Shown here piece after piece: positions 17,896-34,480 of a stretch of DNA of 64,000 nt. The notes under the pieces were generated by a model, which worked only from the letters and a program-made list of their open reading frames with translations, searched no databases and was not told the origin of the DNA. The DNA comes from Zeus faber. Its lineage: Eukaryota; Chordata; Actinopteri; Zeiformes; Zeidae. Location: assembly GCA_960531495.1 (NCBI GenBank), contig OY482866.1, forward strand, positions 18,208,846 to 18,272,845. Direction: 5' to 3'. Position 1 is the first letter of the stretch, and each line of letters opens with the position of its first letter. A program made the position numbers and the translations under genes.

Positions 17896-34480
<16,585 letters not shown>

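Follow-up and report, generated by a model that had tools for sequence, protein, structure and literature searches.

A receptor guanylyl cyclase gene of Zeus faber in which one half of the catalytic site appears to have been replaced

Results

A receptor guanylyl cyclase gene of 23 exons

The window analysed here, a stretch of 64,000 nucleotides from the Zeus faber assembly GCA_960531495.1 (contig OY482866.1, positions 18,208,846 to 18,272,845), carries at 17896-34480 on the forward strand the open frame of a receptor guanylyl cyclase gene of the GC-D/E/F type, with 23 exons and a product of 1055 amino acids. Most exons were located by tblastn with the human RetGC1 sequence, and the remainder by frame reading. 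There is no stop among the 1055 codons and no frameshift, and GT-AG borders are found at 22 of the 22 introns. This splice model, built independently, reproduces the intact gene with 23 clean exons of the preliminary description. It places the exons as follows.

17896-18136, +, exon 1
18213-18443, +, exon 2
19532-19687, +, exon 3
19898-20040, +, exon 4
20173-20328, +, exon 5
21175-21324, +, exon 6
21731-21950, +, exon 7
22398-22467, +, exon 8, encodes a hydrophobic stretch
23288-23372, +, exon 9
24053-24169, +, exon 10
24516-24599, +, exon 11
25559-25735, +, exon 12
26447-26600, +, exon 13
27053-27196, +, exon 14
27750-27898, +, exon 15
28540-28703, +, exon 16
31650-31773, +, exon 17, first metal aspartate Asp840 in SDIVGFT (splice model and family alignment)
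32239-32307, +, exon 18
32624-32798, +, exon 19, guanine residue Glu880, second metal aspartate Asp884, triphosphate arginine Arg931
32944-33042, +, exon 20, 99 nt, phase 1 in and out, with Cys952, Thr959, His963 and Ala966
33187-33272, +, exon 21, terminates in RKTQ (RGxTxLK in RetGC1 and GC-C)
33413-33498, +, exon 22, begins VTGKVDTFW
34393-34480, +, exon 23

The Pfam domains of the protein follow the order of receptor guanylyl cyclases, with an ANF_receptor ectodomain (PF01094, residues 45-381), a kinase-homology domain (PF07714, 529-759) and a Guanylate_cyc domain (PF00211, 827-1009); NCBIfam gave no match, either for exon 1 or for the cyclase domain. About 50% of the protein is identical to the human retinal enzymes, with 538 of 1055 residues shared with GC-E and 532 of 1055 with GC-F, and the final exon has 14 identities to GC-E versus 8 to GC-F. 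Overall identity to these two enzymes is a near tie and so does not assign the gene to either. Hence, of the name gucy2d given earlier, the GC-D/E/F-type cyclase stands, and gucy2d itself is no more than a guess.

Eight large open frames, considered as neighbour genes for synteny, gave just a reverse transcriptase and one match below the cut-off. Three further features of the window lie outside the gene.

16860-17504, +, open frame spanning a tandem repeat of 21 bp, matching an ice-binding beta-roll model at 26.1 bits (cut-off 30), probably an effect of the repeat
43421-44560, -, open frame encoding a reverse transcriptase domain (PF00078, E 1.1e-9), probably part of a retroelement
47771-48029 and 48314-48572, inverted repeat with 259-nt arms, 95% complementary and 284 nt apart, the longest among the matches listed and possibly a foldback mobile element

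Replacement of one half of the catalytic site

Each cyclase site is composed of two metal-binding aspartates and one arginine from monomer A, and an asparagine, an arginine and a lysine from monomer B (PMC2576301). The equivalents of Asn1025, Arg1029 and Lys1065 are described as acting in ribose placement, triphosphate binding and transition-state stabilisation; the asparagine positions the ribose, and the arginine and lysine bind the triphosphate, with a proposed part in the transfer (PMC9223806). In the fish gene, positions 33009-33023 of the forward strand read ACT ACC GCG TCT CAT and include two codons that depart from the family.

33009-33011, +, codon ACT of Thr959, family residue Asn
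33021-33023, +, codon CAT of His963, family residue Arg

Thr959 and His963 had been noted in the preliminary description as replacements of Asn and Arg; both codons are present, and the residue numbering is identical in the splice model. Its statement that Asp840, Asp884, Glu880 and Cys952 are retained holds in that model and in the alignment alike, and the role in transition-state stabilisation that it gave to the Asn and Arg agrees with two published accounts (PMC9223806, PMC2576301). Also kept is the triphosphate arginine, Arg931. The RetGC1 counterparts of the guanine residues Glu880 and Cys952 are Glu925 and Cys997 (PMC7939455). As to how the replacements arose, CAT could have been derived from CGT through a single CpG transition, and the change from Asn to Thr requires a transversion, for example AAT to ACT.

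This half-site has lost its third residue, the triphosphate lysine, as well, and three residues are deleted across exons 21 and 22: the lysine loop reads RKTQVTGK in the fish protein versus RGRTELKGKG in RetGC1 and RGETYLKGRG in GC-C. The start of exon 22 is VTGKVDTFW, as against GKGAEDTFW in RetGC1. The lysine position is faced by Gln998 in two alignments and by Thr1000 in another, and lysine is absent from it in each. Lys1002 remains nearby. Visual inspection of the borders where exon 21 ends and exon 22 begins revealed no alternative splice sites that would restore the loop. Given that the Asn and Arg had changed, the chance of finding this named third position among the remaining changes is 7 in 99, so that the loss of the lysine lends only modest independent support.

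Within the complete catalytic set (Asp, Asp, Arg from one side; Asn, Arg, Lys from the other), therefore, Asn, Arg and Lys are missing. In the sequence alignment, the metal half is retained and the transition-state half is lost, with three of the three A residues kept and three of the three B residues replaced. The loss is one-sided because the Asn, Arg and Lys stem from one monomer and the metal aspartates and Arg from the other. If any three of the six were lost at random, all would fall on one side in 1 of 10 cases, a simple count that was made after the data had been seen. The incomplete set lowers the likelihood that the product is an active homodimeric cyclase, and leaves its descent from the receptor cyclase family untouched.

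Across the catalytic domain, 101 positions are invariant in RetGC1, GC-C and NPR1, and the fish protein has changed 9 of them, the residues at 959 and 963 included, and kept 92. When each relative is made the odd one out in the same way, the counts are 15 of 107 for GC-C, 20 of 112 for NPR1 and 1 of 93 for RetGC1; nine changes are thus ordinary in number, and it is the positions that matter. Six of the nine fall in exons 20 to 22, two of them being single-residue deletions, and those of exon 20 are Asn to Thr959, Arg to His963 and Ser to Ala966. Bacterial relatives, fetched as 8 loci out of 72 candidate stretches in a genome scan, have the two Asp, the Arg, the Asn, the second Arg and the loop lysine in all eight cases.

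The motif strings VNTASRM, VTTASHM and VTTASRM had no match among the literature texts searched, a result of little weight as the normal motif is equally unmatched, and the word "catalytic" is absent from the main text of two papers on teleost cyclases (PMC7674705, PMC10061024).

A second, inverted exon 20 within intron 11

Exon 20 is present a second time, in inverted orientation and together with flanking intron.

25191-25541, -, whole inverted arm, exon copy plus flanking intron, counterpart at about 32792-33108
25258-25356, -, exon 20 copy itself, inside intron 11, identical at 94 of 99 positions, with the same Thr and His codons
25236-25382 with 32918-33064, inverted, ungapped arm pair, 96% complementary
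25374-25524 with 32792-32942, inverted, ungapped arm pair, 91%
25430-25541, (GT)n array adjoining the exon 12 acceptor, one edge of the inverted arm

The copied stretch begins in simple repeats upstream of exon 20 and continues for some 66 bases past the exon's downstream end, and the (GT)n and (CA)n arrays lengthen the pairing of the arms. No normal second exon 20 was found within the window by tblastn with the gene's own protein (E<=1) or blastn with its exons (E<=1e-3), both of which returned only the inverted copy; tblastn with RetGC1 likewise gave this copy as the one additional match to the exon. Because both copies carry Thr and His, these residues predate the duplication of the exon, gene conversion aside; for the same reason, a simple base-calling error is unlikely. 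The copies differ at three residues, and each time it is the exon of the gene that has retained the family residue, a weak test with a chance of 1 in 8, one-sided and counted after the data had been seen.

In the pre-mRNA, the two arms are predicted to form a duplex of -314.2 kcal/mol; 178 control stretches from the same gene region have a mean of -72.7, a standard deviation of 16.0 and a lowest value of -105.6 kcal/mol. The predicted duplex pairs 98 of the 99 nucleotides of exon 20 and both of its splice sites, with A33022 opposite U; A32942 of the exon 20 acceptor stands in UAG.

As separate observations, the arms might also favour an inversion of exons 12-19, and two minisatellites lie in the introns of the gene: one of 16-bp units (ATCGATTCGATCCGAT) at 24759-25140, close to the inverted copy in intron 11, and one of about 21-bp units (GCACATGGTGATTTTAGGCTT, 21 copies) at 29063-29503 in intron 16.

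Persistence of the open frame

The two exon copies provide a measure of the divergence since the exon was duplicated. Seven substitutions in 222 aligned bases give a divergence of about 1.6% per lineage; gaps were excluded from the count, as were the 7 final aligned bases, which lie beyond a gap and contain one further mismatch. Neutral evolution of the gene was simulated at 0.65, 1.6 and 3.2% per lineage, the central value being near the count and the bounds chosen by hand, with transitions as two-thirds of changes and with indels at 0 or 10%, of which 80% were frameshifting. With substitutions only, the gene and its splice sites remained intact without selection with a chance of 0.31, 0.056 and 0.0025 at the low, central and high settings, respectively; with 10% indels, the values were 0.051, 0.00075 and 0 of 4000 runs. 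The simulation thus points towards a frame kept open by selection since Thr and His arose, with the low setting being compatible with decay, and it speaks for the open frame while saying nothing of which function would be selected. The preliminary view that this is not a pseudogene accordingly gains from the clean 23 exons and from the small central and high values, and is held back by the low setting (0.31 and 0.051), which allows decay.

Discussion

Receptor guanylyl cyclases are taken to be symmetrical homodimers with two sites. The gene described here would depart from this scheme, and the explanation that we favour, if only tentatively, is that it is a maintained gene whose homodimer would be nearly or fully inactive and whose product may serve as the one-sided subunit of a heterodimer, with a partner that has an intact B half. 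Under this explanation, the B half (Asn, Arg, Lys) of the composite site would have been dismantled and the A half (Asp840, Asp884, Arg931) retained. Homodimers would form little or no cGMP; the protein could still donate its A half to another cyclase whose B half is intact, and the outcome would be either a subunit of a one-site heterodimer or a damper on the partner. Adenylyl cyclase C1 and the alpha subunit of soluble guanylyl cyclase are precedents for such a donation. Two earlier suggestions fit in here: that the homodimer is weak or inactive is now better supported, because that half-site lacks its lysine too, and that the product is specialised has been sharpened by a loss that is one-sided and like that of adenylyl cyclase C1.

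Several observations point towards the half-site subunit. All of the A residues are kept and all of the B residues lost against a background of 92 unchanged positions out of 101, and all three changes of invariant residues in exon 20 equal the residues of AC5 C1. Thr959 matches, by motif, Thr500 of AC6, which is reported at the forskolin pocket, in the dead site of the adenylyl cyclase heterodimer (PMC10135528). Thr and His predate the exon duplication, yet the gene has acquired no stop and no broken splice site. Moreover, half-site rescue works in RetGC1, where subunits disabled on opposite halves give one working site upon co-expression (PMC7939455). Against the same explanation, Glu880 and Cys952 are kept although a pure donor of the A half would have no need of them, mammalian RetGC2 reportedly forms no pairs with RetGC1 in vivo (PMC7939455), and the low simulation setting leaves a chance of 0.31 or 0.051 of an intact gene without selection, the divergence having been taken from 222 aligned bases.

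Close behind ranks the early decay of a redundant duplicate, which we regard as a serious contender, albeit a tentative one: catalysis would have been lost, the gene would be drifting, and its frame would have stayed open by accident or under weak selection on the rest of the protein. Extra visual cyclase genes left by their genome duplication are frequent in teleosts. In one study, about 75% of the teleosts examined possess three or more visual cyclases, plus an olfactory one, and several species have already inactivated one visual cyclase duplicate (PMC7674705). The clustering of six of the nine changed invariants, two single-residue deletions among them, in exons 20 to 22 would suit such a decay, as would an identity of just about 50% to human GC-E and GC-F. 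Nevertheless, 23 exons have come through without a stop, a frameshift or the loss of a splice site, the simulated chance of this without selection is 0.056 to 0.00075 at the central divergence, and the A half and the guanine residues are untouched.

A more far-reaching form of the heterodimer explanation, which we consider unlikely but worth stating, is that a one-sided metal donor of the C1 or alpha kind has evolved independently among vertebrate membrane guanylyl cyclases, with a dead second site and as an obligate heterodimer with another receptor cyclase; the dead site might then be a regulatory pocket.

It is improbable that the enzyme still works, with Thr, His and, instead of the lysine, some other basic residue giving reduced or differently tuned formation of cGMP. 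Histidine is able to carry a positive charge, Lys1002 lies nearby, and the gene appears to be maintained in the light of the neutral simulation. Some bacterial class III cyclases, for example Rv1900c, are active without the usual Asn/Arg pair, which also counts for residual activity. On the other side, the equivalents of Asn1025, Arg1029 and Lys1065 are all gone at once (PMC9223806), and eight of eight bacterial relatives retain the Asn, Arg and lysine.

More doubtful still is an altered product through RNA processing, whether by ADAR editing, by skipping of exon 20 or by circularisation of exons 12-19. The predicted duplex is far below the controls, editing of A33022 would turn the CAT of His963 into an Arg codon, and the 99-nt exon, in frame and with equal phases, could be skipped. 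Nevertheless, CAT is an unfavoured context for ADAR, and editing could restore neither Asn959 nor the lysine. Some 7.5 kb separate the arms, and removal of intron 11 may come first; inverted repeats are, furthermore, common in the window, which contains 1333 pairs with a length of 60 nt or more, and among the matches listed many join simple repeats. Finally, although the region is rich in simple repeats, a sequencing or assembly error is scarcely credible in view of two copies about 7.5 kb apart that differ at 5 of 99 positions and share both codons, and of 23 exons free of frameshifts.

Were the half-site subunit to be borne out, the gene would repeat the transition to asymmetry once made by adenylyl and soluble guanylyl cyclases, here caught while the guanine residues remain. 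If it is a decaying duplicate instead, it would show how the loss of a visual or olfactory cyclase begins. Either way, the inverted exon copy probes whether exon duplications create signals for RNA editing or exon skipping.

Among the retinal and olfactory cyclases themselves, RetGC1/GC-E, RetGC2/GC-F and GC-D share the domain order of the fish protein and the metal and guanine residues that it has kept, and the tail of the protein is close to that of GC-E. It differs from them in the replaced Asn, Arg and Lys, the three deleted residues of the lysine loop and the added inverted copy of exon 20. The engineered g-minus and r-minus mutants of RetGC1 likewise have one half disabled, as predicted here, and are rescued by a partner disabled in the opposite way; the guanine or metal residues were removed from them in the laboratory, whereas in the fish gene the transition-state residues have been lost naturally (PMC7939455).

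Soluble guanylyl cyclase offers a half-site subunit in its alpha chain, where Thr replaces Asn as it does here (NNVTLANK). In contrast to the fish protein, alpha has Lys at the position of His963, and it forms its catalytic unit with beta as a soluble enzyme rather than as a membrane receptor.

A further likeness is to adenylyl cyclase, which has one active and one non-functional site, each monomer lacking residues that the other supplies (PMC2576301). C1 of AC5 carries Thr, His and Ala at the equivalent positions of the helix (VTLANHMEA versus VTTASHMEA in the fish protein), and both retain the metal half. Thr and His are not universal among C1 halves, since C1 of AC8 has Asp and Lys at the positions of Thr959 and His963. 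Furthermore, C1 is without the base-binding Glu and Cys and shares one chain with its C2 partner, whereas the fish protein retains Glu880 and Cys952 and has no fused partner. So far as the sequence goes, the fish protein would thus resemble a C1 half in its working and is not a member of the C1 family.
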